DNA from: Ralstonia sp. UNC404CL21Col
GTDB lineage: Bacteria > Pseudomonadota > Gammaproteobacteria > Burkholderiales > Burkholderiaceae
NCBI RefSeq assembly: GCF_000620465.1
Contig: NZ_JIBE01000004.1
Span: 1,302,001-1,366,000, forward strand
Length of the DNA stretch: 64,000 nt
Direction: 5' to 3'
Shown: positions 16,535 to 57,088 of the stretch, piece by piece
How positions within the stretch are numbered: the first letter of the stretch is position 1
Layout of the letters: each line of letters starts with the position of its first letter
The notes under the pieces: model-generated
Databases searched by the model: none
Seen by the model: the letters and a program-made list of their open reading frames with translations, nothing else
Told to the model about the DNA's origin: nothing
Position numbers and translations under genes: made by a program

Positions 16535-16909
16535 GGGGATCACTCGGGGACTAAGGGGGGGTGGACTTTCCCGGCTCGCGTCGCGCAAGACACCGTAAAA
16601 CAACGCAGCGCACAAAGTCGGGTTCTCGGATGGCATTCTTCCCCACCTCTGTCCAGCTCATTCCAGCAAGAAACGCGGTCAATCCCGCTTATCTCGGGCG
16701 TTTGCGATACAGGCGGGGGCACGTCGGTATCGCTAAAAGTAATTTACAGCGCACTTTTATAGGGCGAGTAGCCTTCGCCTAGTGCATTACCAGCCGCACG
16801 GGCGCGGGGTCACGCCAAAAAGTGACGTTGGCCCGAAAGATTTGCCGGCGCTTGCCGTTGTAATGAAGGAAGGCGCCGGCACGTTCCGGCCCTGCATACC
16901 CGCGTTGCC
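16535..16909. other. Divergent intergenic region between fliL and the GGDEF-EAL gene
   Basis: About 375 bp without a convincing gene. It must carry the fliL operon promoter (minus) and that of the c-di-GMP gene (plus). Visible are an inverted repeat TAAAAGT-N12-ACTTTTA at 16734-16759, possibly an operator, and a FliA-like promoter at 16835-16861. No clear sigma-28 box faces fliL. Confidence 0.6.
16835..16861 (+). promoter_or_regulatory. Candidate sigma-28 (FliA) promoter of the GGDEF-EAL gene
   Basis: GAAA-N15-GCCGTTGT. Spacing is exact, and the -10 is identical to that of the fliD candidate promoter. It lies about 50-65 bp before the likely TTG starts of the PAS-GGDEF-EAL gene. Confidence 0.45.
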
Positions 16910-32580: not shown

Positions 32581-33683
32581 GCGGCGCTCCTGCGTGTGGC
32601 AGCGGACGCGGCGGCGGTGAAGCGGTCGATCTGCTGGTCGCACAGCGTGCGCGCATCCGCGGTGTTTTCATGCAGATGCCGATACCACGCGGCGGTCTGT
32701 TCCAGCGCGGTCTCGAACGGCCACGCCGTCTGCCAGCCCAGTTGCTGCCGTGCCCGGCTGGCGTCGAGATGCAGCATGCCGGCTTCATGGCGGCCGGCGG
32801 CGGCATTGGCGTCCAGTTGCCAGATCAGCGCGGGCCAATGGTGTTGCAAGCCTTGCAAGACCTGTTCGACCGTGCGCGTGGCGGCGCTGTCCGGGCCGAA
32901 GTTCCAGGCGGTCGCGCACGCGGCGTCACCGGCCAGCAGCCGTTGCGCGAGCACCAGATACCCATGCAGGCAATCCAGAACGTGCTGCCACGGCCGCGTG
33001 GCGTGCGGTGAACGGATGACCAGCGGCGTACCGGCACGCATCGCGCGCTCGGCATCGGGAATAAGGCGGTCTTCCGACCAGTCGCCACCGCCGATGACAT
33101 TGCCTGCACGGCCGGTGGCCAGCAGCGGGCCGTTGGCGAAAAACGCGCGCCGGTAGCTTGCGGCCACCAGTTCGGCGCAAGCCTTGGACGCGCTGTACGG
33201 ATCATGGCCGCCGAGTGCGTCGGTCTCGCGGTAGCCCCAGGCCCATTCGCGGTTGTCGTAGCACTTGTCGGTGGTGGCCACCACGATGGCCGACAGGCCG
33301 GCGCAGGCGCGCGCGGCTTCCAGCACGTTCACCGTGCCCATCACGTTGGTGGCGTAGGTGCCGGCCGGGTCCTGATACGACGCACGCACCAGCGGTTGCG
33401 CGGCCAGGTGAAACACCACGTCGGGTCTCGCCGCGGTCATGGCGGCACGCAAGGCATCCGCGTCACGGATATCGCCCAGCGTGTGGCCGGCCAAGGCGGA
33501 TTCCGCCTCCGCCAGCGTAAAGAGATTCGGGTGCGTTTCGGGCGCCAGGCTGTAGCCGGTCACATCGGCACCAAGCTGGCGCAGCCACAGTGCCAGCCAG
33601 CTGCCCTTGAAGCCAGTGTGCCCGGTCAGGAAGACGCGCTTGCCTGCCCACGCACGGGGGTCGAGCGTCACCACTTTTTCCAC
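32577..33683 (-). CDS. rfbG: CDP-glucose 4,6-dehydratase RfbG
   Basis: 368 residues from a GTG that follows GGGGAG at good spacing; the frame is open further back but runs into rfbF. SDR-type: [20 protein letters not shown] at the NAD site, YxxxK as YSASK, and ATTDKCYDN, matching CDP-glucose dehydratases. It converts CDP-glucose to CDP-4-keto-6-deoxyglucose, the branch point for CDP-deoxysugars. It overlaps rfbF by 16 bp. Confidence 0.93.
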
Positions 33684-34441
33684 GGTGCACTCCCCGCTTG
33701 CCAAAGGGCTTCCAGACTGTTCTTGTCGCGCAGCGTGTCCATCGGCTGCCAGAAGCCGTGATGCTCGAACGTGTTCAGTTCGCCCATCTCGGCCAGGCGC
33801 GCCATCGGTGCGCCTTCCCACGGCGTGTCTTCGCTCGCGATGTATTCAATGACGGACGGATTGAGCACGAAGAAGCCGCCGTTGATCCAGCTGCCGCCGT
33901 CGCCGGGCGGCTTTTCGGTAAAGCCGGTCACGCGTGCGCCGTCGCGCTGGAGCATGCCGTAGCGGCCCGGTGGCTGCACGGCCGTCACGGTGGCCATCTT
34001 GCCGTGTGCGCGGTGGAAGGCGATCTTGCTCGTGATGTCGATGTCCGACACGCCGTCGCCGTAGGTGAAGCAGAACGGCTCGTTCGGGTCCAGGTAGGCG
34101 GCTACGCGCTTCAGGCGCCCGCCGGTCTGCGATTGTTCGCCCGTGTCGACCAGCGTGATGCGCCACGGCTCGGCATGGCGCTCGTGCACGGTCACTTCGT
34201 TCTTCGACATATCGAACGTCACGTCCGACATGTGCAGGAAGTAGTTGGCGAAGTACTCCTTGATGACGTAGCCCTTGTAACCGAGGCAGATGATGAAATC
34301 GTTGATGCCGTGGGCGGCATAGATCTTCATGATGTGCCAGAGGATCGGGCGGCCACCAATCTCGATCATCGGCTTGGGCCGCAGGTGCGATTCTTCGCTG
34401 ATGCGCGTGCCGAGGCCCCCGGCCAGGATGACTGTCTTCAT
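33668..34441 (-). CDS. rfbF: Glucose-1-phosphate cytidylyltransferase RfbF
   Basis: 257 residues, usual length. [40 protein letters not shown] and [12 protein letters not shown] are the RfbF signatures. It makes CDP-glucose from CTP and glucose-1-phosphate for RfbG. It is 10 bp after the TPR-type glycosyltransferase. Confidence 0.97.
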
Positions 34442-34451
34442 GATTGCGTAC

Positions 34452-35561
34452 TCATGCGGCGGCGACTGCGCTGCGTTCCTGCATCTGCCGCGCGAGGTCG
34501 GAATATTGGTTCGACTTGATGGCCAGCGTGTCGGCCAGGGCGCGGTAGGTCAGCGCCAGGTACTTTGCGGCGGCAAAGCTGCCGCGCCCGAATACGGCGG
34601 CGTCCAGCTTGGGCTGCTCGCCAATCTCCAGGCACTTCAGGAAGGCGTTTTCCGCCATCGGCAGCCATTGTTTTTCGGCCTCGGCCGGGTGCTTGGCAGC
34701 GGCTTCAAACATGAGATGGCCGAGCAGGTAGAAGTAGTCCGGCGAGCCCGACCATTCGTCCATCCACTCGCCGGCCAGGGTGATGGCCTCGTCGAGTTGT
34801 CCGGTCTGGCTCAGGCACGCGAGCAGGCAGATACACAGGTCGTGCCGATAGGGCGACTGCTTGGGTGCCGTCGCCACGGCGCGGCGGTAATACTCTGCGG
34901 CCTGGGCGGCGTCGCCCTGGTTGATCTGGAAATCCTTGCCGAGCTGGTAGAGCACGTACGGATCGTCCGGACGCGCGGCCAGTTCGAGCTGGAGCAGGGT
35001 GTGGTTGCGCCCGCGCTTCTTCTCGAGCTTGACGTCCAGGTAGCCGTCGTGGCCGATCACCAGCGGCAGGCGAACGCGCTGCAGGTCGGCATCGGGCTGC
35101 TCGTGGATGCGGCCCTTGTAACGCACGCCGCGCGGCAGCAGGCGCGCAATCCAGCTGTTGGATTGCTCCACCTTGCCCGAGACTTCAAACCCGCTGCGGA
35201 TGCACACCACGCCCAGCAATGGGCCGAAGGTGCAGGCGTCGCGCAGCTCGTCCGTGCCGGCCTCGATCCATTCGTCGGCGTCCAGCACGAGGTTCCAGTC
35301 CGCATTGGCGGCGGCCAGCGCGGCGTTGCGGGCGGCCGAAAAGTCGTCCACCCACGTGAAATGGTGCACCTGGGCGCCGCACGCCTTGGCGATCGCCACG
35401 GTGTCGTCGGTCGAGCCGGTGTCCAGCACGATCATGCGATCGACGTGCGGCTTGGCGCTCATCAGGCAGCGCTCGATGCAGGCAGCCTCGTCGCGGGCGA
35501 TGACGACCAGCGCAAGACTGCCCCGGGCGGGCTTGGCGCGGTGTTTGGCGTGTTTGGACAT
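34452..35561 (-). CDS. Family 2 glycosyltransferase with TPR-like C-terminus (copy 2)
   Basis: 369 residues, same layout as the gene at 23807-24889. The GT2 domain has [40 protein letters not shown] and DAD at 94-96. Helical repeats follow ([40 protein letters not shown]). It is 37 bp after fliE copy 2 on the same strand. It is likely the enzyme that puts the first or further sugars on a flagellar protein. Confidence 0.9.
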
Positions 35562-41353: not shown

Positions 41354-41818
41354 ATGACCACCATGAACAAGCCGTTCCGCCTCGAAACCGTGCTGGAACT
41401 GGCCCAGAAGGACACCGAAAAAGCCACGCAGGAAGTCGGCCGCCTGATGAATACGCGCGAGGCCGCCACGCAAAAGCTGGCACTGCTGTCCGACTACCGC
41501 AACAACTACCACCAGCAGATGCTGAGCACCGCTGAAGGCGGCATGGACGTCACGCGTTTGCGCAACTACGCGGCCTTTATCGACCGCCTGGGCAACGCCG
41601 TGCACCAGCAGAAGGGCACCATCAGCGCGCTGGAGCAGCAGCTTGCGATGAGCCGTGCCAACTGGCTGGAAAAGCAGCGCCGCGAGCAGTCGTTCGACAT
41701 CCTGCGCCAGCGCCACATTGAAGAGCAGCGCCTGGACGAAGAACGCCGTGCCCAGCGCGACAACGACGAACACGCCGCCAAGGTGATCCGCATGCGTGCG
41801 GCACAGGGCGGCAATTGA
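41354..41818 (+). CDS. fliJ: Flagellar export protein FliJ
   Basis: 154 residues. It is a predicted antiparallel coiled coil, e.g. RLETVLELAQKDTEKATQEV and the Arg/Glu-rich end. FliJ is a cytoplasmic stalk of the FliI ring. It lies 108 bp after fliI with a GGAGGG site. Confidence 0.92.
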   Translation: MTTMNKPFRLETVLELAQKDTEKATQEVGRLMNTREAATQKLALLSDYRNNYHQQMLSTAEGGMDVTRLRNYAAFIDRLGNAVHQQKGTISALEQQLAMSRANWLEKQRREQSFDILRQRHIEEQRLDEERRAQRDNDEHAAKVIRMRAAQGGN

Positions 41819-43449
41819 AGACCAACGCGAACACGCAGTCGCAAGATGGAGTCAACGTGGGCTTGAGTGCCACCCCCAACGCCGCTGCCAAAGACCTGGG
41901 CGCCATGCTGTCGGCCGGCAATACTGCCGCCGCCGACAAGACGCAGGCTTCCTCGTCCGGCACCGATACCTTCGGCAATCTGTTGTCGGACCGCCTGGCC
42001 CAGGACGCCGCACGCCGTCGCGCGGACGCACAGTCGGCCGCCGACGAGGCCGGCCGCCGCGCCGATATCGCGCGCAAGGACGCGACGCGCACCAGCGCCG
42101 CGAGCAACGGTCAGGACGCCAAGCCGGCCGACGACAATACGCCCGTGCCGAGCATCACCACGCCTGCCGCCAGCACCGCCGATACGGCCAATGCCAAGCC
42201 GGCCCAGCCGGCCAGCGCCAAGGACCTCGATACCGCGGCACAGCAGGCGGTGGTCGACCCGGCTGCCCAACTGGCGGCTCAGATCGAAGCCGCACGCCAG
42301 GCCGCGCAGCAGGCGGCCGCAGTCGTGCAGCAGCCGGTTGCGCAACCGGCGCCCCAAACGAATACCAAGGCCGATACCGACGCCGCAACGCCGGTTGTCG
42401 CCAAATCGTCTGCAAATGACGCTGCTGCTCTGGCTGCCGCAAACGCCGCGGCAAACGGGGTGGCCAACGCGGCACAGGGCGCCGCTGACCCAGCCATGAC
42501 TGCACAAGCGGCCCCGGCTGGGTTGCCGGCTGCGCAGGACGCCAAGGCCAACGCTGCAAACACGCCGACGCCACCGGCCACCGCGCTGCCCGACAGCGGC
42601 ACGCTGGCCCAGACCATGGCCCGCACGCGCGCCGTTGCCGACAACACGCCGCCCGCCGTGCGCCAGCTCGGCAGCACGTCGTCTGCGCAGGGCGCGAATG
42701 CCGACCACGGCCTGCCGCGCCGCAGCGACCTGAGCGCACACAACACCGTCACGCAAACGGCCGCGACCGCCGTCGCTGATGCCACCAGCCACGCCAGCAA
42801 TGGCGGCAACGCCGGCAACACGGACAACGCCGGTACGCAAGCCAATGCGCAGGGCAGCGGTACGCTGTTCCAGGGCGCACTGTCGCGTGCCAATGGCGAT
42901 GCCGGCATGGCCGCCGCACCGACCTTTGCGGTGGGTGGGGCCAACGCAGGCGCTGCGACAGGTGCATCGATCACGCCGCAGCAAGTCCACACGCTGCCCA
43001 CCTTTGGCGACGCCGCATGGCCGCAGAGCATGGCGAGCCAGCTCGCCTTCATGCAAGTGCACCGTCAATCGTCTGCCGAACTGCAGTTGAACCCGGCCGA
43101 GCTGGGCGGCATGCACGTCAAGCTGGAAGTGGACAACGGTGCCGTCAACGCGAGCTTCGTCTGCCAGCACCAGGCGGTGGCCGAACTCGTGCAGGACGCC
43201 ATGCCGCGCCTGCGCGACGCCATGCAGCAAGGCGGGATGCAGCTTGCGCAAACGTCGGTCAGCACGGGTGACTTCAGCCAGCAGCAGAGCGCATCGCAGG
43301 GTTCATCGGCGCAAAACCAGGGCAGCGGTTCGGGCAGCGGGAATAGCGGCAGCCGTTATGGCGGCGGCTCGCAAGACCGCGCCGATACGCTGGCGGTGGC
43401 ACCGCGTCGTGTGTCCACCCACGAAGGCGCTATCGACACGTTTGCCTGA
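41815..43449 (+). CDS. fliK: Flagellar hook-length control protein FliK
   Basis: 544 residues. A long Ala/Thr/Gln-rich ruler region precedes a C-terminal FliK domain (HRQSSAELQLNPAELGGMHV; KLEVDNGAVNASFVCQHQAV). FliK measures the hook and switches export specificity. The start is uncertain: the TTG at 41815 overlaps the fliJ stop (TTGA), while a GTG at 41857 has a GGAG site five bases upstream. It is last in fliFGHIJK. Confidence 0.93.
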   Translation: MKTNANTQSQDGVNVGLSATPNAAAKDLGAMLSAGNTAAADKTQASSSGTDTFGNLLSDRLAQDAARRRADAQSAADEAGRRADIARKDATRTSAASNGQDAKPADDNTPVPSITTPAASTADTANAKPAQPASAKDLDTAAQQAVVDPAAQLAAQIEAARQAAQQAAAVVQQPVAQPAPQTNTKADTDAATPVVAKSSANDAAALAAANAAANGVANAAQGAADPAMTAQAAPAGLPAAQDAKANAANTPTPPATALPDSGTLAQTMARTRAVADNTPPAVRQLGSTSSAQGANADHGLPRRSDLSAHNTVTQTAATAVADATSHASNGGNAGNTDNAGTQANAQGSGTLFQGALSRANGDAGMAAAPTFAVGGANAGAATGASITPQQVHTLPTFGDAAWPQSMASQLAFMQVHRQSSAELQLNPAELGGMHVKLEVDNGAVNASFVCQHQAVAELVQDAMPRLRDAMQQGGMQLAQTSVSTGDFSQQQSASQGSSAQNQGSGSGSGNSGSRYGGGSQDRADTLAVAPRRVSTHEGAIDTFA

Positions 43450-43472
43450 CCGGCCGCTGGCCCCGCAGCGTC

Positions 43473-43499
43473 TAAAGTTCGGTGCAACCCTGCCGTTAA
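43473..43499 (+). promoter_or_regulatory. Orphan sigma-28 (FliA) promoter downstream of fliK
   Basis: TAAA-N15-GCCGTTAA, 11 of 12 consensus positions with exact spacing, as good as the fliC promoter. It begins 24 bp after the fliK stop, and no gene follows on this strand before the terminator. Confidence 0.75.
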
Positions 43500-43586
43500 T
43501 ACGCAGGAGTGCCATGCAAAAATGGCCAGCCGCAAGGCAATGAAAGAAGGACGGGAAATAACAACGCGAGCACGCCGCGCATAGGT

Positions 43587-43615
43587 TTGACGCGGCAGCG
43601 TTGCAAATGAATAAC
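43587..43615 (+). promoter_or_regulatory. Sigma-70-like promoter inside the candidate RNA
   Basis: TTGACG-N17-AATAAC: 5 of 6 and 4 of 6 matches with ideal 17-bp spacing. It could give a shorter RNA independent of flagellar control. Confidence 0.45.
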
Positions 43616-43759
43616 AAGGGGGTCAAGTCCGACTGGCGAAGAAGGGATCAAACGGGGATCATTTCGCCACATCCGTCTTCGGGCGGATGCACACGGACCG
43701 ATGCGGGGTGTCCGAGCCGGGGGGCTGGCGCACCGCATGTTTGCCGTACTTACGGGAGA

Positions 43760-43785
43760 GCGCACCGCGAGGTGCGCTTTTTGTT
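43760..43785 (+). terminator. Rho-independent terminator of the candidate RNA
   Basis: A perfect 7-bp stem GCGCACC/GGTGCGC with a GCGA tetraloop, followed by TTTTTGTTTTTG. Confidence 0.88.
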
Positions 43786-43829
43786 TTTGTGCGTCTGCTT
43801 CGTCGCCGCGGCGCACATGCGGGCCAGCC

Positions 43830-44807
43830 TCAGGCGCCCGCTTCCGCCGTCGTCAGTGTGGCGGGCGTGACCGATACCACGTGCTCCACGCCATAGCCGC
43901 GCTCCACCCATGCGTCGATACCGCCATGCAGCGGACGCACGCGCTTGAAGCCGCGGCCCATCAGCGTGCGCGCCAGCATCACGGCAGACGCCTCGTTGGG
44001 GCAGGCGCAGTAGATGATGATCTCGCGGTCGGGGCCGTCGATCTCGATCGCGCGATTGCTGCTGGACATGTCATACAGCATGGCCCCCGGAATGCGTTGC
44101 GGCTGTAGCATGCGCGAGCTGTCTGCCCGCACGTCGATGATGACGGGTGCCGCGCCCGATTCGATCAACGCATGCAACTCGTCGGGCGAGATGCGCGCCA
44201 TCTCCAGCATCTTGCGAAAGCGCCAGCGCTGCAACCAGCGCGCCGCTACATATACCGCTGCCAGCAACGCGATCAGCAGCACGGCGCGCGTGCCCAGCAG
44301 GTCGAGTTGGCGCAGCGCCTGGTCGATGCTGTCGTGCGCCAGACGGCCCAGCAGCAACCACAGCGTGGCCCACACCGCCGAGCCCACCAGGTTGTACAGC
44401 GCAAACGTGCTGAAGGGCGTGCGCATCGTGCCAAGCAGCGCTGACGACACGGTCGACAAACCCGGAATGAACTTCGCGATCAGCAGCATCGGGGCGCCCC
44501 AGCGCTCGAATTGCGTGCGCGTGCGTCGCACGCAGGAATCGGGCGACAGCGATACGCGGCACAGCAATGCCATGACGTGCCGGCCATAGCGCTTGCCGGC
44601 GAAATACCACAGGCCGTCGCCAAGCAGCGCGCCCGACACGGCGGCCGGTGCCAGTTCCATCACGTAAAGCGGTCCGTGGAAGGTGAGCGCGCCAGCCACG
44701 AGCAGCGTCGGCACGGCCGGCAGCGGCGCGCCGGCCTGCGTCAGCAGCACATTGAGGAACACGGCAAACGCGCCGTATTCGGCGATCAGGGGAAACAGGT
44801 CATGCAT
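43830..44807 (-). CDS. DedA-family membrane protein fused to a rhodanese domain
   Basis: 325 residues from MHDLFPLIAEYG. The N-terminal 200 or so residues are DedA/SNARE-associated (GALLGDGLWYFAGKRYGRHV; FIPGLSTVSSALLGTMR), with several membrane segments; DedA proteins are membrane transporters or flippases. The C-terminal 110 residues are rhodanese-like, with a candidate active-site Cys in IIIYCACPNEAS. Such fusions occur in other proteobacteria; the reaction is unknown. It is divergent from the next gene. Confidence 0.9.
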   Translation of the reverse strand: MHDLFPLIAEYGAFAVFLNVLLTQAGAPLPAVPTLLVAGALTFHGPLYVMELAPAAVSGALLGDGLWYFAGKRYGRHVMALLCRVSLSPDSCVRRTRTQFERWGAPMLLIAKFIPGLSTVSSALLGTMRTPFSTFALYNLVGSAVWATLWLLLGRLAHDSIDQALRQLDLLGTRAVLLIALLAAVYVAARWLQRWRFRKMLEMARISPDELHALIESGAAPVIIDVRADSSRMLQPQRIPGAMLYDMSSSNRAIEIDGPDREIIIYCACPNEASAVMLARTLMGRGFKRVRPLHGGIDAWVERGYGVEHVVSVTPATLTTAEAGA

Positions 44808-44962
44808 GGCAGGAAGGGCGCAGCGGGGCAAATGCGTTTGCCAAGTTACCGCATTCCGGCGCTGCCCGATAGCCATGTCACCGGAATGCGCTCGGCGATC
44901 TGCGGTTTGCGTGAAATTGGCGTGACAATGAACGCTTCACACCGCTTCCACATCCTGCCGCC

Positions 44963-45701: not shown

Positions 45702-45764
45702 CATTTTGTCAAGAAATGTCTACTGCGGCGGTTTAGAAGCACACCTTTGGGCAAGAAAAAACCC

Positions 45765-45786
45765 GCCGAAGCGGGTCTGCATGTTG
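45765..45786 (-). terminator. Rho-independent terminator of the repressor gene
   Basis: On the minus strand, a 6-bp stem ACCCGC/GCGGGT with a TTCG loop followed by six T. It is 22 bp after the repressor stop. Confidence 0.85.
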
Positions 45787-45808
45787 AGAAGCGGGCGCGG
45801 GCGTCCGC

Positions 45809-46603
45809 TCAGAAATCGCCCATGCCGGACCGGTACTTGACCCGACCCACGATGTCGATGTGTTCGAGCTGGTCTGGTGTCACGATGAACGGATCGTGCT
45901 TCTCCTTGTTGTCGCTCACCACCCGGATCGAGCCGTCGGGCAGGCGGAACAACCGCTTCACCAGCATCTCGCCGCAGTAGACCAGGGCGAACACGCCGCC
46001 GCCCGTGGGGATGCGCCGGTCCGCCTTGTCGACGACCACCGTGTCGTCATCGAACAGGCGCGGCTCCATGCTGTCGCCGCGCACCTTTACCGCCACGAGG
46101 TGCTTGGGGCTGGCGTCCAGCCGGCGGACGTAATCGGCCTGGAACGGCAGCGGTTCCTTCTCTTCAACGTGCCAGGTTTCGCGCCCGTTGCCGGCAGAAA
46201 GGGCCACGTCGACATGCGTGATGAGGATGGTCGTCTCGCTCGGCAGTTCGTCCAGGCTGTTGTACGTGGTGATGGGCCGCGCGGGAAAGCCCTTGCTGTG
46301 CGCGGACGCGCCTGCGCTTGTGCGGACGAGATCGCCCGCGCTGCCGCCGGCAGCCTGCGCGGCCGCGTCGGAGAACGGGGTGTCCATCACACGGTCGGCA
46401 AACCCCAACTTTTTCTCAAGACGACGTGCGGCGATGTCGCCGATGCTGCGGCCATCCTGGTAGGTGCGCGACAGGAACTGCGCGACCTGCGAGCGCGAAT
46501 ACCCGTACAGACGCTCGAACGCCGAGCGGTCTCCGTTGACGAGGGTCTGGATCCAGTAGGTCAGCCACTGGCGGCGGTTGTCGTAGATGTCCATGGGTCG
46601 CAT
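45809..46603 (-). CDS. CI/PrtR-like repressor with S24 peptidase domain
   Basis: 264 residues; a second start three codons in is possible. The N-terminal part suggests a DNA-binding helical domain (RLYGYSRSQVAQFLSRTY; SIGDIAARRLEKKLGFAD). The C-terminal S24 domain has the catalytic pair, Ser178 in VRGDSMEPRLFDDD and Lys216 in GEMLVKRLF. Several Ala-Gly pairs in the linker are candidate self-cleavage sites. By analogy with CI and PrtR, RecA-assisted cleavage after DNA damage would induce the tailocin. It is divergent from the next gene, with shared TTAGA/TCTAA dyads between. Confidence 0.9.
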   Translation of the reverse strand: MRPMDIYDNRRQWLTYWIQTLVNGDRSAFERLYGYSRSQVAQFLSRTYQDGRSIGDIAARRLEKKLGFADRVMDTPFSDAAAQAAGGSAGDLVRTSAGASAHSKGFPARPITTYNSLDELPSETTILITHVDVALSAGNGRETWHVEEKEPLPFQADYVRRLDASPKHLVAVKVRGDSMEPRLFDDDTVVVDKADRRIPTGGGVFALVYCGEMLVKRLFRLPDGSIRVVSDNKEKHDPFIVTPDQLEHIDIVGRVKYRSGMGDF

Positions 46604-46622
46604 TAGAGCAAGAAATTTCTAA
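46603..46622. promoter_or_regulatory. Operator-like dyad at the repressor start
   Basis: TTAGA-N10-TCTAA around the palindrome AGAAATTTCT (46611-46620), directly at the repressor start. It would suit autorepression. Confidence 0.5.
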
Positions 46623-46641
46623 TTTGTGTACCAGGAGTTTC

Positions 46642-46670
46642 TTGACGCAACAGTTTAGAACAATCTAAAC
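46642..46670 (+). promoter_or_regulatory. Promoter and operator for the tailocin regulators
   Basis: Promoter-like TTGACG-N16-TCTAAA. Overlapping it is a perfect dyad GTTTAGA-N4-TCTAAAC (46653-46670). Repressor bound here would block rightward transcription into the two small regulator genes. Confidence 0.6.
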
Positions 46671-46775
46671 TTCTCCGCACGACCTGATCTCCGCCGCTGC
46701 CTACTGCAGGCGGCCCGGGTCGAACCGAATCTGTTCAATCCGCGCGCCTGCTCGCGCCGACTGGAGCCTCTTCCC

Positions 46776-47072
46776 ATGACTGTCACCCAAACTTCGATGG
46801 ATGCTTTTCGACGTAACCGCGCCACGTCCACGGCCAAGCTGCAGTGCGACCGCATCGCCGACTACGTCGCCCGCAGCGGCACCGCCACGATTGCCGAAAT
46901 CGCGCAGGCGCTGCGCATTGAGAAGTCGAGCGTCTCTGCGCGCCGCAGCGAATTGATCGCCGCCAAGCGGCTCGAGCTGGACGAGGAACGCAAATGCGGC
47001 GTCACAGGCCGCTGGGTGCAGTCGGTGCGTGCGGTGGGCGCCGGGCCTGCGCAGGTGCGCGTTTTCCAATAG
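46776..47072 (+). CDS. Small winged-helix regulator
   Basis: 98 residues. RIADYVARSGTATIAEIAQA followed by SSVSARRSELIAAKRLELDE has the look of a winged helix-turn-helix. It is the first gene right of the repressor and its promoter carries the operator dyad. It could activate or modulate tailocin transcription, a position like that of PrtN in pyocins, but it is not evidently homologous to PrtN. Confidence 0.65.
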   Translation: MTVTQTSMDAFRRNRATSTAKLQCDRIADYVARSGTATIAEIAQALRIEKSSVSARRSELIAAKRLELDEERKCGVTGRWVQSVRAVGAGPAQVRVFQ

Positions 47073-47194
47073 GCGCATGCGTCATCGCGTTTTCGGCTGT
47101 CTTCGTCTTCCGTCAGTGCGGCGACAGCGCGAGAGGCGGGTGACGCAAGCCGATATCGGCATCCACACGCAACAAACATACGAGGACAAGGGAC

Positions 47195-47638
47195 ATGGGA
47201 ATCGAAGACCGTTTGGAGAACTGGAGTCGCGTCGTGCGCGACCCGAGCTGGCAACCGCAGTACTGCGCATCGTGGGCACGGTTGGCCGTCGCCATGCGCG
47301 ATGCAGAATGCGGCGCGCCGCAAGCCATCGTCAGCATCGACGTGAATGACGGCTGGCTGGTCGAGCAGGCGTGGCAGAAAATTGCCGACCCCGTAGCCAA
47401 GCGGCTACTGCAGTATCACTACGTGCATCGCATGCCGGCAGAGATGGTGTGCCGCATTCTCGTGCGCAAGTACGGCGCATCGCCGCATACGCTCAAGCAC
47501 TGGAAGGTGCGACTTGCGAAGGCGCAGTCGATCATGTCGCACGTCATCGATTCGGAAGTGGCGCGCGCGCAGATGACGAAGGCCGTGCGTGCAGCGGCCG
47601 CTGCCGCGACTGTGACGGCGGCTCCGCTGGCCGCCTGA
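47195..47638 (+). CDS. Putative late-gene regulator of the tailocin
   Basis: 147 residues; start after AAGGGA. The segment VAKRLLQYHYVHRMPAEMVC followed by KYGASPHTLKHWKVRLAKAQ recalls the sigma-region-4-like helices of phage late activators such as the ArpU or Q-like groups. It stands directly before the terminator that precedes the tail operon, the usual place for an antiterminator or late activator. Function is inferred from place and fold pattern. Confidence 0.6.
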   Translation: MGIEDRLENWSRVVRDPSWQPQYCASWARLAVAMRDAECGAPQAIVSIDVNDGWLVEQAWQKIADPVAKRLLQYHYVHRMPAEMVCRILVRKYGASPHTLKHWKVRLAKAQSIMSHVIDSEVARAQMTKAVRAAAAAATVTAAPLAA

Positions 47639-47749
47639 AAATTTTTTCGGAATTTTTTCTTCAGCCCACTTGCACGGTTTATATCCCCTTCGTATTCTGT
47701 TTCCCAGATGTTCGATTGCCCTCGCGGCGTAACCGGTTCAGACCGAGAC

Positions 47750-47770
47750 ATGCACCCCACTGGGGTGCAT
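47750..47770 (+). promoter_or_regulatory. Perfect 9-bp inverted repeat before the tail operon
   Basis: ATGCACCCC and GGGGTGCAT around a 3-nt ACT. It has no T run, so it is more like a protein-binding dyad or an RNA signal than a terminator. Confidence 0.45.
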
Positions 47771-47804
47771 TGATTTACCCAGACGAAGCGCAGACATCGC
47801 GAAG

Positions 47805-47832
47805 AAAAGCCCGCCACGCAGCGGGCTTTTTT
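47805..47832 (+). terminator. Intrinsic terminator ahead of the tail operon
   Basis: Stem GCCCGC/GCGGGC extended by AAAA/TTTT pairs, 6-nt loop, six T. It lies between the regulator gene and the first tail gene, about 150 bp before the latter. Confidence 0.8.
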
Positions 47833-47984
47833 GTTTCTCGGCTTCGCTTGCTGACGTATTCCCACGCAATACATGCCTCGATGTCGCTACACGGTGACGA
47901 ACCGTTCGCGGCTGTCTCAATCCTGGATACAACTCACTCGATCGATCACGCATTGCAGCGCGCATCGATGAAGGCGCTTGTCTT

Positions 47985-48821
47985 ATGGCAGATCTCTCTG
48001 ACGTTTCCACTGCACTCGTCACGCTGGTCACCGGCGTGGTTTATCCGAACGGAATCGGCCAGCCGTCGATCACGGGCAATCCTGTGGTGGTCTACAGCGG
48101 CTGGCCCAACATGACGCAACTGAAGACCGACCTGCAGGCCAACAAGGTCCATGTGTCGATCTTTCCGATCACGAGTCATCAACGTCACGCCAACACTGCG
48201 TTCTCGGATTGGACCGTCGCCACACCGCCGGCGAACACGCTGGCCTTGAGCGTGACGGCACAGACCGTCATGGTGAACGGTATCGTCAGCACGCCGCAGA
48301 ACGTTGTGCTGTTGGTGGACGGCCGCGCATATGCCTATGCCGTGCAGGCCAGCGATACACCGGCCAACATTGCGACGTCGCTAGCCGCGCTGGTGGCTGT
48401 TGACCGCCCGGCAACGGCCACTGGCTCGTCGATCACCATTCCGAATGCGACATACATCTCGCCGCGCGTGGGTGGCATCGGCACCGTGCAGCGCGAGACG
48501 CGCAGGCAAGAGCGCACCTTCCTGATCTCGGCGTGGGCGAATGGCGCGGCGCCGCGCGACCTTATCGTCGGCAAGATCGATGCGGTGCTCTCGGGGATCG
48601 TGCGCCTGACGTTGCCCGATCAGGGCGCGGCGCTGCGTTACAAGCGCGGCCATCAGCATGACGACCTGACGAATGGCATCTACCGGCGCGACCTCCGGTA
48701 TGCCGTCGAGTACGCAACCATCGTGACCGACACCGCGTACCAGATTGCGACTGGGGTCGAGAACGTGACAGCCGGGGCGTCAATGGGCGCGCAGTTTCCT
48801 GTCCGGGCCATCGCGCAGTAG
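47985..48821 (+). CDS. First tail-operon protein, possible tail terminator
   Basis: 278 residues, family not recognised with certainty. The ends (MADLSDVSTALVTLVTGVVY; RYAVEYATIVTDTAYQIATG) resemble phage tail-completion or terminator proteins. The middle (ALSVTAQTVMVNGIVSTPQN; AYAYAVQASDTPANIATSLA) is an Ig-like insert seen in sheath and structural proteins. It precedes the sheath gene, where Mu has small head-tail joining and tail terminator genes. It would cap the tail where a capsid would attach. Confidence 0.55.
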   Translation: MADLSDVSTALVTLVTGVVYPNGIGQPSITGNPVVVYSGWPNMTQLKTDLQANKVHVSIFPITSHQRHANTAFSDWTVATPPANTLALSVTAQTVMVNGIVSTPQNVVLLVDGRAYAYAVQASDTPANIATSLAALVAVDRPATATGSSITIPNATYISPRVGGIGTVQRETRRQERTFLISAWANGAAPRDLIVGKIDAVLSGIVRLTLPDQGAALRYKRGHQHDDLTNGIYRRDLRYAVEYATIVTDTAYQIATGVENVTAGASMGAQFPVRAIAQ

Positions 48822-48892
48822 CGCGGTCGTGGTCGCCCATGGCCGGGTTCGCCTGGCCGCATTGCAGTGGAAGTCCATCAACCGTAACCGTG

Positions 48893-48920
48893 CCGCCCTT
48901 TTTGTTCGGGCGGTTTTTTT
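48893..48920 (+). terminator. Terminator-like hairpin before the sheath gene
   Basis: Stem CCGCCC/GGGCGG and seven T, about 50 bp before the sheath start. A second stem GGCCGC/GCGGCC (48927-48944) follows. Confidence 0.7.
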
Positions 48921-48971
48921 ATTGCCGGCCGCCTTCGTGCGGCCATTTTGTTCTCTCACTTGGAGGCACGC

Positions 48972-50504
48972 ATGCCGATCGTCCAGCAGGGCAGCATCAA
49001 TACCACTGCACTCATCGTTCCGGACCTGTACGTCCAAATTGTTCCGCCGCAGGTCACCCTGCTCAACGGCGTTCCCACCAACGTGCTCGGCGTGGTCGGT
49101 ACCGCGGCCTGGGGGCCCGTCAACTCGCCGACGCTGATCGGCAACATGGCCATGTACGCGCAGACGTTCGGCGCGATCCAGAACCGCACCTACGATATGG
49201 GCACGGCCGTGGCCGTGGCGGTTCAGCAGGGCGCCAACAACTTCCGCTGCGTGCGCGTGACCGATGGCACCGACACCGCTGCCACGGTGGTCGCGCAGAC
49301 GAACGGCGTGACGTTCACGGCCAAGTACACGGGTTCGCTCGGCAACACCGTCACGGTGGCGCTGGCGGCAGGTTCGGCTGCCAACACGTGGAAGGTGACC
49401 GTGGCCGCTCCGACGCTGGCGCCCGAAGTGTTCGACAACATCGGTGCCGGTCAGACCGGCAATGCGTTGTGGATCGCAATTGCCAACGCCATCAACAACG
49501 GCGTGAGCGTGATGCGCGGCGCGTCGCAAATCATCACTGCCACCGCCGGCGCGAGCACCACCGCACCGACGGCCGCCACGCTGCAACTGGGGGGCGGCAC
49601 GGATGGCGCGGCCACCATCACCGGCGCCGTGCTGCTCGGTCAGGACACCGTGCCGCGCAAGGGCATGTACGCGCTGCGCAACCAGGGCGTGTCGATTGCC
49701 ATGCTCGCCGACTGCACCGACGCAACGACCTGGCCGACCCAGGTGGCGTTCGGCCTGTCTGAGGGCATCTACATGATCGGCACGGGCCCGAGCGGCGACA
49801 CCATCGCCAATGCCGTCACAGCCAAGAGCACCGCTGGCATCGATTCGTACGCCTTCAAGCTGTTGTTTGGCGATTGGGTGTATTGGCTCGATACCGTCAA
49901 CGGTGTGACGCGCCTGGTGTCGCCGCAAGGCTTTGTTGCGGGCTTGCTGGCCAACCTGTCCCCGCAGAACAGCAGCCTGAACAAGCAGATCTACGGCGTG
50001 GTGGGCACGCAGAAAACGTTCGCCAACCAGAGCTACAGCTCGGCCGAGTTGCAGGCGCTGATCCAGGCCGGCATCGATGTCGTGACGAATCCGGTGCCGG
50101 GCGGTGCGTACTTCGGTTGCCGTGCGGGGCACAACACCAGCTCGAACGCGCTCACGCAGGGCGACAACTACACGCGCATGACCAACTACATCGCCAGCAC
50201 GATCAACGCGGGCATGGGCAAGTACGTCGGCCAGCTGCAGTCGGCCACGGTGCGCGCGCAGGCGGCGGCCACGTTGTCGAACTTCCTCAGCTCGATGGAG
50301 CAGCAAGGGATGATCGGTGCGGTCAATGGCGGCCCGGCGTTCTCGGTGCAGATCGATGCGAACAACAACCCGATGAACCGCGTTGCGCTGGGCTACATGC
50401 AGGCCGATGTGAAAGTGGTCTACCTGTCCGTCATCGAGAAGTTCCTGGTGAACGTGGAAGGCTCGCAGGCCACGGTGATCCGCACGTCGACGGCAAATCA
50501 GTAA
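48972..50504 (+). CDS. Contractile tail sheath protein
   Basis: 510 residues from MPIVQQGSINTTALIV, with TGGAGG five bases before the ATG. Typical of Myoviridae-type sheath proteins: VPTNVLGVVGTAAWGPVNSP near the start, RCVRVTDGT, and the C-terminal domain with NYIASTINAGMGKYVGQLQS and VNVEGSQATVIRTSTANQ. An Ig-like insert lies near residues 110-225. It contracts to drive the tube through the target envelope. Confidence 0.92.
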   Translation: MPIVQQGSINTTALIVPDLYVQIVPPQVTLLNGVPTNVLGVVGTAAWGPVNSPTLIGNMAMYAQTFGAIQNRTYDMGTAVAVAVQQGANNFRCVRVTDGTDTAATVVAQTNGVTFTAKYTGSLGNTVTVALAAGSAANTWKVTVAAPTLAPEVFDNIGAGQTGNALWIAIANAINNGVSVMRGASQIITATAGASTTAPTAATLQLGGGTDGAATITGAVLLGQDTVPRKGMYALRNQGVSIAMLADCTDATTWPTQVAFGLSEGIYMIGTGPSGDTIANAVTAKSTAGIDSYAFKLLFGDWVYWLDTVNGVTRLVSPQGFVAGLLANLSPQNSSLNKQIYGVVGTQKTFANQSYSSAELQALIQAGIDVVTNPVPGGAYFGCRAGHNTSSNALTQGDNYTRMTNYIASTINAGMGKYVGQLQSATVRAQAAATLSNFLSSMEQQGMIGAVNGGPAFSVQIDANNNPMNRVALGYMQADVKVVYLSVIEKFLVNVEGSQATVIRTSTANQ

Positions 50505-50549
50505 CACACGCATCAAGCGCGTTACCCCTCGCATACCCATCAACCTTCT

Positions 50550-50578
50550 CGCCCCGCACGACGTGGGGCGTTTCTTTT
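50550..50578 (+). terminator. Terminator-like hairpin before the tube gene
   Basis: Stem CGCCCC/GGGGCG followed by TTTCTTTT, running straight into the GGAG ribosome site of the tube gene. Confidence 0.6.
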
Positions 50579-50588
50579 GGAGAACGTT

Positions 50589-51020
50589 ATGCCGATTCAA
50601 GGCTACTCCGTCGGTCGCGACTACACGCTGGTCATCCAGACCGCAAGCGGCACGCTGCAACCGAACAAGATCACCGCATTCAAGAGCAAGCAGGACGTAA
50701 CCGACGTGCGCGTCAAACGCCTGGACGGCATCACCGACCATGTGCGCTTCTTCGACGGCTGGTCGGGTTCGTTCGACGTGGAGCGCCAGGACGCGACGCT
50801 CGACAACTACTTTGCGCAGCTCGAAGCGGGCTACTACGCGGGCCTGAACGAAGCCCCCGCGCAGATCTACGAAACGATCCAGGAGGCCAACGGCTCGGTC
50901 TCGCAGTTCCGCTATGACGGTGTGCTGATGACGCTGGCGGACGCAGGCAATCGCGCCGGCGACGCCACCATCAAGCAGTCCGTCAACTTCGTGGCTTCGC
51001 GCCGCATCAAGGTGTCCTGA
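50589..51020 (+). CDS. Tail tube protein
   Basis: 143 residues from MPIQGYSVGRDYTLVI. Small beta-rich protein directly after the sheath gene, e.g. RVKRLDGITDHVRFFDGWSG and DNYFAQLEAGYYAGL. Position and size fit the Mu-type tube protein. It forms the inner tube. Its stop overlaps the chaperone start by one base. Confidence 0.85.
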   Translation: MPIQGYSVGRDYTLVIQTASGTLQPNKITAFKSKQDVTDVRVKRLDGITDHVRFFDGWSGSFDVERQDATLDNYFAQLEAGYYAGLNEAPAQIYETIQEANGSVSQFRYDGVLMTLADAGNRAGDATIKQSVNFVASRRIKVS

Positions 51021-51379
51021 TGACCAACGTGACGACCACTCCCTCCGAACAGATCATCAAGGCCGCCACGAAAGAGCTGGTGGTTGACGATGCATTGGGC
51101 CGCAAGATCACGCTGCGCAAACCGAGCCCGCTGGCGAATCTCGACTTTGCCAAGGCCGCGGGCGGCAGCGAGCTGAACATGCTGTACCTGGCAGAGGTCG
51201 CGCATCTGAAGTTCGTCTGCGCCATCGATGGTGACCCGGTGCCGACGCCAGCCTCGGAAGCCCAGTTGCGTGCGCTGTATCAACGCCTGGGCGAAGAGGG
51301 CAACGAAGCCGCGCAGCGCGGTGTCGCGGCCAGCTTCATCAACGTTGCCACGTCGGAGTCCGAGCTAAAAAACTCCTGA
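51020..51379 (+). CDS. Tail assembly chaperone, short form
   Basis: 119 residues. VVDDALGRKITLRKPSPLAN and FAKAAGGSELNMLYLAEVAH are typical of Mu gp41-like tail assembly chaperones. It coats the tape measure before tube assembly. The end carries an A AAA AAC slippery sequence (51367-51373), two codons before the stop. Confidence 0.85.
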   Translation: MTNVTTTPSEQIIKAATKELVVDDALGRKITLRKPSPLANLDFAKAAGGSELNMLYLAEVAHLKFVCAIDGDPVPTPASEAQLRALYQRLGEEGNEAAQRGVAASFINVATSESELKNS

Positions 51380-51546
51380 CGAACGGCCCGTTTCACGAGG
51401 CGATGTGGCTCGTGCATAACGGTGTTCCGTTCGACGTGGCGTTTTCGCTGGACGACACCATGCGGCAGGCGATGGCGATCAAATGCAGCGAATTCCATGG
51501 CGCGCAGTTCGACCTGAAGACGATGTCTTTCAAGGAGCGCGAATGA
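51020..51546 (+). CDS. Tail assembly chaperone, -1 frameshift fusion
   Basis: Slippage at A AAA AAC (51367-51373) would move ribosomes to the -1 frame, which stays open through 57 codons to a TGA at 51544-51546, inside the next start (ATGA). The fused product would be about 175 residues; the added part includes TNGPFHEAMWLVHNGVPFDV and KTMSFKERE. This is the arrangement known for lambda G/GT and Mu-like tails. Confidence 0.8.
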
Positions 51547-51947
51547 ACCTTTCGTTAGCAGAGATGGCGCGTCGCCTGATCGAGTTGGAGGCGCGCGTGC
51601 CGCAAGCGTTGTCGCAGGGGCTGGACGCGGCCGCTGCGGCACTGGAGCTGGCAGCTAGCGCCAAGGCGGTGGAAAGCGCGGCGGCCGCCGGCATCGCAGA
51701 TGCGGCGCTGGTGAATGCGCTGCGCGATTCCATCGGCCGGGAGGTCAAGGGGTTGGAGGCGGCCATCGGCTCCAACGCCAACCAGGCTGTCGTTCTGGAG
51801 CTGGGCAGTGTGCAGACGCCACCGCATCCATTTTTGGGTGCGGTGGCAAACGAGCACGCCGACGCTGTGCAACAGCGTGTGGGCGATGCGGTGACGGCGG
51901 TGCTGGAGGGCCGCCCATTGGCTTCCACCGCAAGCGCGCACAAGTGA
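51543..51947 (+). CDS. Small tail protein (HK97 gp10-like)
   Basis: 134 residues from MNLSLAEMARRLIELE. An Ala-rich helical part is followed by TPPHPFLGAVANEHADAVQQ, a motif common in HK97 gp10-type tail-completion proteins. The start overlaps the stop of the chaperone fusion. It sits between chaperone and tape measure. Confidence 0.65.
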   Translation: MNLSLAEMARRLIELEARVPQALSQGLDAAAAALELAASAKAVESAAAAGIADAALVNALRDSIGREVKGLEAAIGSNANQAVVLELGSVQTPPHPFLGAVANEHADAVQQRVGDAVTAVLEGRPLASTASAHK

Positions 51948-51981
51948 GATCGGTGGCCTCAACAGACGAACAAGGATTCCT

Positions 51982-53934
51982 ATGAGCCTCGATGCTTACA
52001 AGATCGGGATACAGATTGCGTTGGTGGACAACGTGTCGCGCGGGTTGTTGGCGATGGCCGCGCAGTTCGAATCCGTCAACAAGAGTGCGGAGAAGTTGGA
52101 GACCCGGCTGGAGAGGGTCAAGAAGCTCACCGAGTTCGGCAGCGGTCTGTTCAAGGCCGGCAACGAAGCCGCCCACATGTGGGACAAGCAAGTGGATGCT
52201 GCTTCGAAGTACCACGCAGTACTTGAACGGATCAGCCGTTTTGACGCCGGCGCTGCGGCGGCGAACGAGACGTTCCTCAAAGGGCTCGACATCAAGGGCA
52301 TGTCGCTCACGGATGTCGGACAGCTGTTTGGTGGAGCACAGACCATTCTGCAGAGTTCGACCCAGGCGCAGGACGTGACGAAACTGCTGGCCCAGGCGCG
52401 GACGGCCTTTGGCTCGGCAACCGGCGTCAAGGACGGCGCGCAACTCGACAGCATGGCGCTGACTGCACTGAAGGTCGCGCAGATGCGCGACGGCGTGATC
52501 GGCAAAGACGGCAAGATCGATACGAAGAAGGTGGAAGAGACCTTCAACATGCTCGTCAATACGGCGCTGGCGAGCGGCGGTGGCGTGCTGCCCAAGGACT
52601 ACCTGGAGGCCATGCAAGGCGGCAAGCTGTCCGGCGCACTGAAGCCGTCAGAGGCCGCGGTGTTTGGGCTGAAGCAGTTCATGCAGGCCAATGGGGGCTC
52701 CAAGGCTGGCGTTGACGCCATGTCGGCGCTCCAAGGCTGGGTGGCAGGGAATATGCCCGCCACGGTCGCGCGTGAGCTTGAACGCGTCAAGCTGCTGGAC
52801 CCGAAGGCCGTGCATCGCGACAAGGCCGGGCACATCACCGGTGTGGATGCAACCGGCATGACGGACGCGCGGGCCTTCACCGAGAATCCGCTTCAGTACG
52901 TGACGAGTGTGATCGTGCCGGCGCTGCAGAAGAGCGGATACAGCGGAGATGCGCTCAACACGAAGTTGGGCAACCTGCTCGGCATGAAGGACGAGAAAAA
53001 CATCCTGGAGCAGCTTCAGCATGACAAGGAGCGGGCCGGGTTGTACCTCGCGAACGCCGGAAAAGGACTTGGCGCAGCAAAGCTCTACGAGAAGGACAAC
53101 GAAGGGCTCGAAGGCAAGCTGAAGGACTACGAGGCCAAGAAGACGAACCTCAATATCGCGCTTGGCGAACATGTTTTGCCGTTGGCGATTTCGGGCTTGG
53201 AGAAGTTCAATGGCCTGATTGAGCGCATCACACACCTTGCACAGGAGTTTCCGGGCACAACGAAGGCGATCATGGCGTTCGCCACAGGACTCGCTTTTCT
53301 GCACAAGGTCATCTCGACGCTGTCGCTGCCTTTGCCGGGCGGCGGAGGGAAGGGTGGCGGTGGTTTCGCGCGCGGCGTCGGGCGTATTGCGAAGTCAGCA
53401 GCCAACGGCGCGCTTCGCCTGGGGGCTGGCGTGGGGCGGTTTGGCCTGTCTGTGCTTCGCGCTGGTGGTGGCGTGGGCCGCGGTCTGCTGAGCGCGGCAG
53501 GAACGCTGATGGAATCGCCGCTTGCGTCGAAGGCTCTGGGAGTGCTGGGGCGGGGTAGCGGCCTTATCAGTGCGGCATACGGCGGCTACAAGCTCGGTGG
53601 CTACGTTAACGACAACGTCATTAGCCCATTGATCGAGCGGGTCAGCGGGGTCAAGGGAGCGACGCTGGGCACGTTCCTGTACGACGTACTTCACGGAGAC
53701 ACTGGCAAGAAATTGCCCGCCACCAAGCCGGACTCCAGCCATGGCGCAAGCGCGCCCAGCACCGCCGTGAAGGTCGCCGAGCCCAAGCTCGTCTATCTCA
53801 AAGGCGACGTGACCATGGACGGCCGCTCCGTTGGCCAGGTGGTCTGGAAGCAGATCGAAGGGCACCTGGCGCGCCCGCAGACTGGCTCCAGCACTTTCAA
53901 TACCGGCATGCAGCTCATGCCATCCGGACTCTGA
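51982..53934 (+). CDS. Tail tape measure protein
   Basis: 650 residues, the longest tail gene. Helical N-terminal half (SVNKSAEKLETRLERVKKLT), hydrophobic/Gly-rich middle (FPGTTKAIMAFATGLAFLHK; RGVGRIAKSAANGALRLGAG), and position before the baseplate genes mark it as tape measure. Its length sets tail length, here relatively short. Confidence 0.88.
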   Translation: MSLDAYKIGIQIALVDNVSRGLLAMAAQFESVNKSAEKLETRLERVKKLTEFGSGLFKAGNEAAHMWDKQVDAASKYHAVLERISRFDAGAAAANETFLKGLDIKGMSLTDVGQLFGGAQTILQSSTQAQDVTKLLAQARTAFGSATGVKDGAQLDSMALTALKVAQMRDGVIGKDGKIDTKKVEETFNMLVNTALASGGGVLPKDYLEAMQGGKLSGALKPSEAAVFGLKQFMQANGGSKAGVDAMSALQGWVAGNMPATVARELERVKLLDPKAVHRDKAGHITGVDATGMTDARAFTENPLQYVTSVIVPALQKSGYSGDALNTKLGNLLGMKDEKNILEQLQHDKERAGLYLANAGKGLGAAKLYEKDNEGLEGKLKDYEAKKTNLNIALGEHVLPLAISGLEKFNGLIERITHLAQEFPGTTKAIMAFATGLAFLHKVISTLSLPLPGGGGKGGGGFARGVGRIAKSAANGALRLGAGVGRFGLSVLRAGGGVGRGLLSAAGTLMESPLASKALGVLGRGSGLISAAYGGYKLGGYVNDNVISPLIERVSGVKGATLGTFLYDVLHGDTGKKLPATKPDSSHGASAPSTAVKVAEPKLVYLKGDVTMDGRSVGQVVWKQIEGHLARPQTGSSTFNTGMQLMPSGL

Positions 53935-53940
53935 TCGACC

Positions 53941-54903
53941 ATGCCCGACTTCGCTCTTAAACTCGGAAACTTCCAGTTCAGGGATCTGGAGGTCCCTGAA
54001 AGCATCCCGTTTGGTGGGACGCAGAAACTCGCCATGCACGACTTGGTGGGTGGCACGCGCGTGATCGATTCGATGGGGGCGTTCTGCGGCCCCGTCGAAT
54101 GGTCCGGGTGGCTGCTCGGCAAGGATGCGTTGGCGCGTGCGCGGCAGTTGGACGATCTGCGCGAACGCGGCGCATCGTTGTTGCTGCAGTGGTCCGAAAT
54201 CTACTACGCCGTCGTCATTCGCGACTTTCGTGCGGATTTTCAGCGTGCCTACAAGATCCCGTACAAGATCACCTGCGAAGTGGCGAGCGATCTGTCGAAA
54301 TTTGCAGGCAGTGATGCAGACCAGAGCATCGATGGCCAGATCAAGAGCGATGCAGCGGCCGTGACGGACATGGGCAGCGCGATTGGCGACGGCACGTTGT
54401 CTGGCCTGATCGATTCGGCGAACTCGGCGATCGATACCGTAGCGAGTTTTGCCAACGCAGCGCAGTCAACACTCAGCAACGTCCTGCAGCAAGTGACAGC
54501 GGTGCGTGATCGTGCTCAAGCGCTGATCGCATCGGCCAATACCACGCTGACAAAGGTGACGACGCTGGGCGGCATCCTGCCGAATAACCCGGTATCGCAG
54601 CAGGTGGAAAAGCTGGCTGGCCAGATGACGTCGGCATTGAACCTGCCGGTGCTGGTTCAGCTTGATCGTGTTGCCGGCCGCATGCAGAAGAACATCGAGT
54701 CCGTCTACAAGAGCGCCAAGCATGTGGTGACGGTGGGTGGCGATCTCATGAAGATGGCGGCCAAGGAATACAACGACGCGATGGCGTGGACGAGCCTGGC
54801 AAAGGCGAACCCGGATCTCCTGTGGGACCCGCTTGTGCAAGGGGTGAAAAACCTGATCGTGCCACCCAACAAGGACCGTGCCGGCGGCTTGCCAAAGCCC
54901 TAG
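53941..54903 (+). CDS. Baseplate/tail protein at the Mu gp43 position
   Basis: 320 residues. The N-terminal half (GGTQKLAMHDLVGGTRVIDS; MGAFCGPVEWSGWLLGKDAL) resembles small baseplate-hub proteins such as XkdP or the N domain of DNA circularisation proteins; the rest is helical. In Mu this place is held by gene 43 (N). It is a likely hub-tube connector. Confidence 0.7.
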   Translation: MPDFALKLGNFQFRDLEVPESIPFGGTQKLAMHDLVGGTRVIDSMGAFCGPVEWSGWLLGKDALARARQLDDLRERGASLLLQWSEIYYAVVIRDFRADFQRAYKIPYKITCEVASDLSKFAGSDADQSIDGQIKSDAAAVTDMGSAIGDGTLSGLIDSANSAIDTVASFANAAQSTLSNVLQQVTAVRDRAQALIASANTTLTKVTTLGGILPNNPVSQQVEKLAGQMTSALNLPVLVQLDRVAGRMQKNIESVYKSAKHVVTVGGDLMKMAAKEYNDAMAWTSLAKANPDLLWDPLVQGVKNLIVPPNKDRAGGLPKP

Positions 54904-54927
54904 CGAGCCGCTTTCATCAACCAGACA

Positions 54928-54950
54928 GCCCCGCAGCGCGGGGCTTTTTT
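54928..54950 (+). terminator. Terminator-like hairpin overlapping the next ribosome site
   Basis: Perfect 7-bp stem GCCCCGC/GCGGGGC, AGC loop, six T, with the ATG only three bases later. No separate Shine-Dalgarno is seen, so the hairpin can hide translation start as well as end transcription. Confidence 0.7.
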
Positions 54951-54953
54951 CTT

Positions 54954-57087: not shown

Positions 57088-57088
57088 T

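Follow-up and report, generated by a model that had tools for sequence, protein, structure and literature searches.

In E. coli, the sigma-28-dependent small RNAs (sRNAs) UhpU, MotR, FliX and FlgO are described as UTR-derived, Hfq-binding and conserved among some Enterobacteriaceae (PMC10578931); the main text of that article mentions neither Ralstonia nor Burkholderia nor fliK. In Campylobacter, CJnc170 (FlmR) is described as a FliA-dependent RNA of 47 nt whose overexpression lowers motility, possibly through middle-class flagellar genes (PMC11187230).

Here we analyzed a locus directly downstream of fliK in a 64 kb stretch of Ralstonia DNA (the window). The RNA predicted there resembles the four E. 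coli sRNAs, as these are described, in its predicted sigma-28 control and its tie to the flagellar programme, and Hfq is encoded in the source genome. In contrast to them, again going by the descriptions, it is long, highly folded and has its own promoter after fliK. With CJnc170 it would share FliA dependence (predicted in Ralstonia) and feedback on middle-class genes, suggested there and proposed here; compared by description, the two differ in size, 47 nt versus ~280 nt with many stems. The sponge RNAs RsmX, RsmZ and CsrB are similar in being rich in stem-loops with several GGA triplets, but none of 16 genomes of the genus gave a CsrA match. We consider it very likely that the unit is an RNA gene under FliA control, as judged from its sequence. 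Our main reading, that it would be a FliA-made, Hfq-bound RNA regulating flagellar mRNAs by base pairing, we hold at a probability of about 0.55. The features of the locus are as follows.

41815..43449, + strand: fliK (Flg_hook domain; Pfam PF02120, E 4e-20, tested from 41854; 5' start uncertain)
43473..43499, + strand: predicted sigma-28 (FliA) promoter TAAAGTTC-N11-GCCGTTAA (pattern scan and genus comparison)
43506..43788, + strand: predicted transcript of ~280 nt (start placed from the -10 box, end from the terminator)
43511..43526, + strand: hairpin H1 (GCCA/UGGC), overlapping a 9-codon frame (ATG at 43514)
43529..43538, + strand: hairpin H2 (GCC/GGC; alignment and structure model)
43557..43564, + strand: first copy of the A-rich motif AATAACAA (AANAANAA type), partly conserved
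43566..43604, + strand: variable hairpin H3 (alignment and structure model)
43605..43626, + strand: conserved linker, proposed Hfq site and seed
43610..43617, + strand: second copy of AATAACAA, inside the linker and joined to GGGGGUCA (43618..43625)
43627..43698, + strand: helix P1 (43627-43631 with 43694-43698), closing hairpins HA and HB
43635..43668, + strand: hairpin HA, with the G-rich repeats GGGAUCA (43644-43650) and GGGGAUCA (43654-43661)
43670..43689, + strand: hairpin HB, with a cUUCGg loop in the source genome
43701..43738, + strand: long hairpin HC (alignment and structure model)
43744..43755, + strand: small hairpin HD (CCGU/ACGG; structure model)
43756..43788, + strand: intrinsic terminator with T-rich tail (stem found at 43755-43782 by terminator scan)
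43830..44876, minus strand: convergent gene for a VTT membrane and rhodanese protein (Pfam domains)
16535..16542, minus strand: candidate fliL pairing site UGAUCCCC, directly upstream of the fliL start codon

The promoter at 43473-43499 matches 14 of the 16 positions of TAAAGTTT/GCCGATAA, the sigma-28 consensus used here for scoring. It is the only zero-mismatch match to TAAAGTT-N12-GCCGNTAA in the window and in the source genome, in agreement with the near-perfect sigma-28 promoter that an initial annotation had placed downstream of fliK. Allowing up to 3 mismatches, the window contained 4 matches (1.04 expected). With up to 2 mismatches the source genome contained 14, while a reversed control pattern gave 28, and weaker FliA-like matches alone therefore carry little meaning. 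TAAAG, GCCGT and the 11-nt spacing are kept in 16/16 Ralstonia genomes, with scores of 12-15 of 16; the lowest (L013, 12/16) is not above the best shuffled score. A FliA-like site also precedes flagellin at window position 19696. For 8 of the 13 other genomic FliA-like matches, the downstream proteins were examined by Pfam. Seven of these sites precede proteins expected in a FliA regulon (a flagellin, a CheW-response-regulator protein, a YcgR-type PilZ protein, an FlxA-like protein, an HD protein and two GGDEF proteins), whereas one (L020), among the better matches, precedes a DUF1801 protein. From the seven we infer that the source organism uses the sigma-28 consensus scored here. The suggestion of a second, sigma-70-like promoter inside the unit did not hold, since no site reached the scan threshold in 43300-44000.

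To follow the unit through the genus we used a set of 16 Ralstonia genomes, the source genome included, none of them identifiable as belonging to the Ralstonia solanacearum complex. The unit adjoins fliK in all 16, with a Flg_hook match just upstream in each. Every genome gave one long match, and G001 a further separate 25-base match. Identities, expressed as means to the window copy over the 15 relatives, fell from 86% at the end of fliK to 33% in the gap between fliK and promoter, rose to 99% at TAAAGTT, and were 63% in the promoter spacer and 88% in the -10 box. They were 80-90% in the 5' part of the RNA (43500-43604), 95-99% in the core segments (43605-43783; 99% over 43701-43752) and 99% in the T tail, dropping to 49% beyond the terminator. 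Note that L008 was left out of alignment A3. In individual relatives the core is 92-100% identical to the window copy (lowest 91.6%). Among the 13 genomes with a comparable 6S RNA (G011, with its locus cut to length 0, and G001, with no 6S match, being excluded), identity was 97.3-100% for 6S RNA versus 91.6-100% for the RNA core. Judged at the level of sequence, conserved boxes flanking a drifting spacer are the trace of a used promoter and an RNA gene, not of a chance stretch. Conservation of promoter and stems in relatives had been set in advance as one of the checks on which the sRNA reading could fail; both were kept in 16/16 genomes. The reading is thus supported by a conserved promoter, structure and terminator, in the same 16 genomes, with no conserved frame found.

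Outside the genus, BLAST over 299 family genomes returned long matches only in the 16 Ralstonia genomes. Nine matches in other genera (E 9e-4 to 1e-2) were dismissed as short (22-33 bases). The surroundings of seven of the nine were inspected and the absence of the unit was judged by eye; by the same standard the short matches in L048 and L049 showed a dnaE-like frame. A tenth short match (L057) falls at another place within a genus genome. A covariance model of the core, run over 120 family genomes, found 10 genus genomes at E below 1e-50, with search filters that were stricter and can lose weak matches. Its matches outside the genus (E 8e-4 to 0.65) were dismissed, the best one (L068) lying inside an open frame. 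An exact 20-mer from the core occurred in 11 genome-record stretches, all titled Ralstonia or Burkholderiaceae bacterium. Rfam gave no match with E up to 1 at 43450-43790, the CsrB, RsmX and RsmZ models included, and no RF00013 (6S RNA) match at the unit; the source genome's own 6S RNA is on contig C5. At 13 loci outside the genus that follow a Flg_hook protein (L091, near a contig end, being excluded), sigma-28 scores were 8-12 of 16, a range that shuffles also cover, reaching 12; C. metallidurans has 137 nt from the fliK stop to the next frame. Because BLAST, the covariance model, Rfam and the non-genus fliK loci gave nothing credible elsewhere, the RNA is, as far as seen in these sequences, confined to Ralstonia. 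Plasmid and phage collections gave no match to the unit either, which says little, because the plasmid collection had no Ralstonia among its best 30 rows for FliI and near relatives may be left out of both. Among the literature matches listed for Ralstonia and sigma-28 sRNAs, a coverage that leaves most subscription journals outside, we recognized no account of this RNA, which may be undescribed.

The initial annotation had described stable stems, one with a TTCG loop. Stems and the cUUCGg loop are present, but the loop sequence is not conserved, while the stem beneath it is paired in 99.2% of cells. Our structure model contains 69 pairs in 11 helices and is paired in 99.5% of 1104 cells, a score favoured by the model having been drawn from the same alignment. 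Four pairs changed on both sides, versus 0.5 in shuffles (0/500 shuffles reach 4), although a control slid by +3 also yields 3 such pairs and the pair-type count is not above shuffles (84/500 reach it). As many as 54 of the 69 pairs never vary, placing most of the structure beyond the reach of covariation. Compensated pairs support H1 (one A-U to G-C change; 2 cells unpaired), the H3 inner helix, and HB (with 2 compensated pairs across relatives). P1, H2, HC and HD never vary, and HA nearly so; these helices are drawn from folding energy, and for the invariant P1 covariation is therefore no test. The H2 loop carries a 13-nt insertion in 2/16 genomes, and the sole variable base of HC in alignment A2 is at an internal mismatch. 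None of 200 shuffles folds as well as the + strand (z -3.16), but the opposite strand folds well too (z -2.70), so that folding alone says little.

In structures sampled for the window copy, the longest run of accessible bases covers 43605-43621, those past 43621 being less accessible. This stretch begins with AAAUGAAUAACAAGGGG and continues into GGGGGUCAAG, whose later part is less accessible. We propose that the stretch starting with AAAUGAAUAACAAGGGG could combine an A-rich motif of the Hfq type with a G-rich seed joined to it. Repeats of the AANAANAA/ARN type are distal-face sites of Hfq. The motif AATAACAA occurs twice in the window, both times within this RNA (chance mean 0.23; 2/100 shuffles reach 2). 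Its second copy is kept in 15/16 genomes, L013 being without the motif. G-rich repeats (GGGGGUCA, GGGAUCA and GGGGAUCA) follow AATAACAA, and GGGGGUCA is invariant in alignment A1. The source genome encodes Hfq, so that an Hfq gene and putative A-rich and U-rich Hfq-type sites, as in Hfq-dependent sRNAs, are found together. In contrast, no match to CsrA (PF02599) was found in any of the 16 Ralstonia genomes, including the source genome at 99.99% completeness; as a control, the same search gave matches in 3/14 control genomes (E. coli, B. subtilis and T. maritima). The failure to find CsrA disfavours a Csr sponge and makes Hfq-based pairing the leading model.

According to this model, the unit would be an independent sRNA gene of the flagellar regulon. 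FliA is active once the hook-basal body is complete. FliA RNA polymerase would then start near 43506, and the terminator would end the RNA near 43788. Hfq would bind the A-rich linker and the U-rich tail, and the G-rich seed AAGGGGGUCAAG, echoed in hairpin HA, would pair with C-rich start regions of flagellar and motility mRNAs. By tuning translation of its targets, the RNA would provide the flagellum programme with a late-class feedback. Predictions of the model are that the unit is transcribed, that it depends on FliA and that Hfq binds the RNA, and they extend to the direction of regulation and the targets. The conserved body is unusually long: at ~180 nt it exceeds what a short seed needs, which counts against pairing.

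To look for candidate targets, we scored start regions in four genomes, taking 26 genes from the flagellar cluster in the window (flgD, with no match in one genome, being left out) and 20 predicted ones from the flhDC/mot/che cluster; 380 windows from inside coding sequences served as the null set. For the latter cluster 20 of 35 predicted frames were used, with script-chosen starts, and some are probably not real genes. Gene names in the window's cluster are presumed from sequence, except for fliK, fliL and flagellin, which were confirmed by Pfam. The start of motA (GUG; Pfam MotA; outside the window) averaged -13.0 kcal/mol, a value reached by 2/380 null windows. The start of fliL averaged -11.4 kcal/mol (8/380 null windows; 5/380 for hairpin HA alone). 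These two start regions are the best predicted targets, but leads only: neither reaches significance once 46 start regions and several scoring schemes are taken into account. All 16 genomes carry the fliL sequence CCGAGTGATCCCCATGG unchanged; since start regions are often conserved for translation, such invariance says little about pairing. Moreover, the best fliL pairings use differing RNA segments across the four genomes. The more specific proposal that triplicated GGG(G)(A/G)UCA seeds, joined to Hfq motifs, would repress translation of motA (motor) and of the fliL operon (export/C-ring), as a late-to-middle feedback, we put forward as an unlikely version of the model.

Two observations touch the same gene cluster. 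Just before the fliL start codon, CCGAGTGATCCCC (window 16535-16547) is invariant in 16/16 genomes, while the sequence further upstream varies. The window also encodes a DegT-type aminotransferase and a family 2 glycosyltransferase at 30839-35561, flanked by genes that we take to be fliE and fliF, and a second family 2 glycosyltransferase at 23807-24889; the stretch 30839-35561 is perhaps a flagellin glycosylation island.

The size of the conserved body also suits a different role, in which the FliA-made structured RNA would bind a protein, as a decoy or scaffold in the manner of 6S or CsrB, rather than pair with mRNAs. Nearly invariant over ~180 nt, far longer than a seed, and conserved almost like 6S, the RNA has stable hairpins and repeated GGG(G)(A/G)UCA elements. 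However, CsrA, which such decoys are best known to target, had a match in 0/16 genus genomes, the combined A-rich and G-rich linker fits Hfq and pairing, and the data suggest no other protein partner. We regard protein binding as possible but doubtful.

A further reading takes the unit as the 3' UTR and terminator of the fliF-K operon mRNA, with the FliA promoter giving a by-product or a second source of the same 3' end. The fliK stop codon is at 43449, with the unit downstream. A scan of 43300-44000 found 2 terminator-like sites, versus 0.7 expected by shuffling, one of them at 43580-43564 of the minus strand. On the + strand the scan found nothing terminator-like in this interval before 43755, so that fliK read-through could end at 43788. 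The + strand stem at 43755-43782, followed by T runs, is the strong intrinsic terminator that the initial annotation had claimed. A 3' UTR origin also has precedent, the sigma-28-dependent sRNAs of E. coli being described as UTR-derived (PMC10578931). However, retention of a sigma-28-like site in 16/16 genomes, beside a fliK-promoter gap that has drifted to 33% identity, is not what one would expect of a plain 3' UTR. As the explanation of the locus we find this reading improbable; it is compatible with ours as a possible second route to the same RNA.

The next gene is convergent, as had been noted (43830-44876, minus strand; Pfam VTT and rhodanese). This arrangement, in which 41 nt separate the terminator tail from the stop codon of the neighbour, could suggest an antisense or insulating element for the VTT-rhodanese gene. 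The terminated RNA does not overlap this neighbour, however, and identity drops to 49% past the terminator, which makes such a role very unlikely. Downstream of the VTT-rhodanese gene, window 45809-58887 is a phage-like stretch (7 proteins scanned) with a CI/S24-type repressor and proteins of tail sheath, tape measure and baseplate type; it may be either a prophage or a tail-like bacteriocin.

The transcript might also be a messenger for a small peptide, as had been raised for the 9-codon frame near its 5' end. The frame is present, with GGAG upstream of its ATG at 43514, and a related 15-codon frame occurs in 5/16 genomes; conservation, however, was not found. The 9-codon length is unique to the window copy among the 16 genomes, and in 5/16 the ATG is missing at the aligned place (ACG in L005, L008 and L010, GTC in L013, ATA in L014). 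In the remaining genomes the frames at 43514 have 10, 31 or 32 codons, partly in other frames, and the place itself forms hairpin H1 with one compensated pair. No other long frame was common to all 16 genomes among the five longest frames of each. Opposite-strand frames of 24 and 14 codons, common to many genomes, may follow simply from the conserved core. A peptide messenger is accordingly highly improbable. The description of a sigma-28 promoter with no gene to serve stands, as no conserved frame was found across the 16 genomes. Two marks of a sigma-28-dependent sRNA were found at this level, a conserved sigma-28 promoter without a protein gene of its own and an intrinsic terminator closing a short predicted transcript.

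A Csr/Rsm-type sponge titrating CsrA through GGA motifs, to which the 7-11 GGA triplets per RNA might point, has next to no chance and was rejected, barring a CsrA too diverged for the Pfam search, given PF02599 in 0/16 genus genomes and no Rfam match at this place. Elsewhere in the window, 45756-45853 on the minus strand gave a sub-threshold Rfam score for rsmX (20.7 bits; gathering 56; E 0.85), probably by chance, because CsrA was not found.

Control of flagella by sRNAs has been worked out in few bacteria. Being so strongly conserved, the Ralstonia RNA lends itself to deletion, probing and testing, and two candidate targets are ready for checking. CsrA is a common route of post-transcriptional flagellar control. 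If our main reading, a FliA-made and Hfq-bound pairing RNA, is true, the Ralstonia RNA would be an RNA arm of the flagellar regulon in a genus where CsrA was not found.
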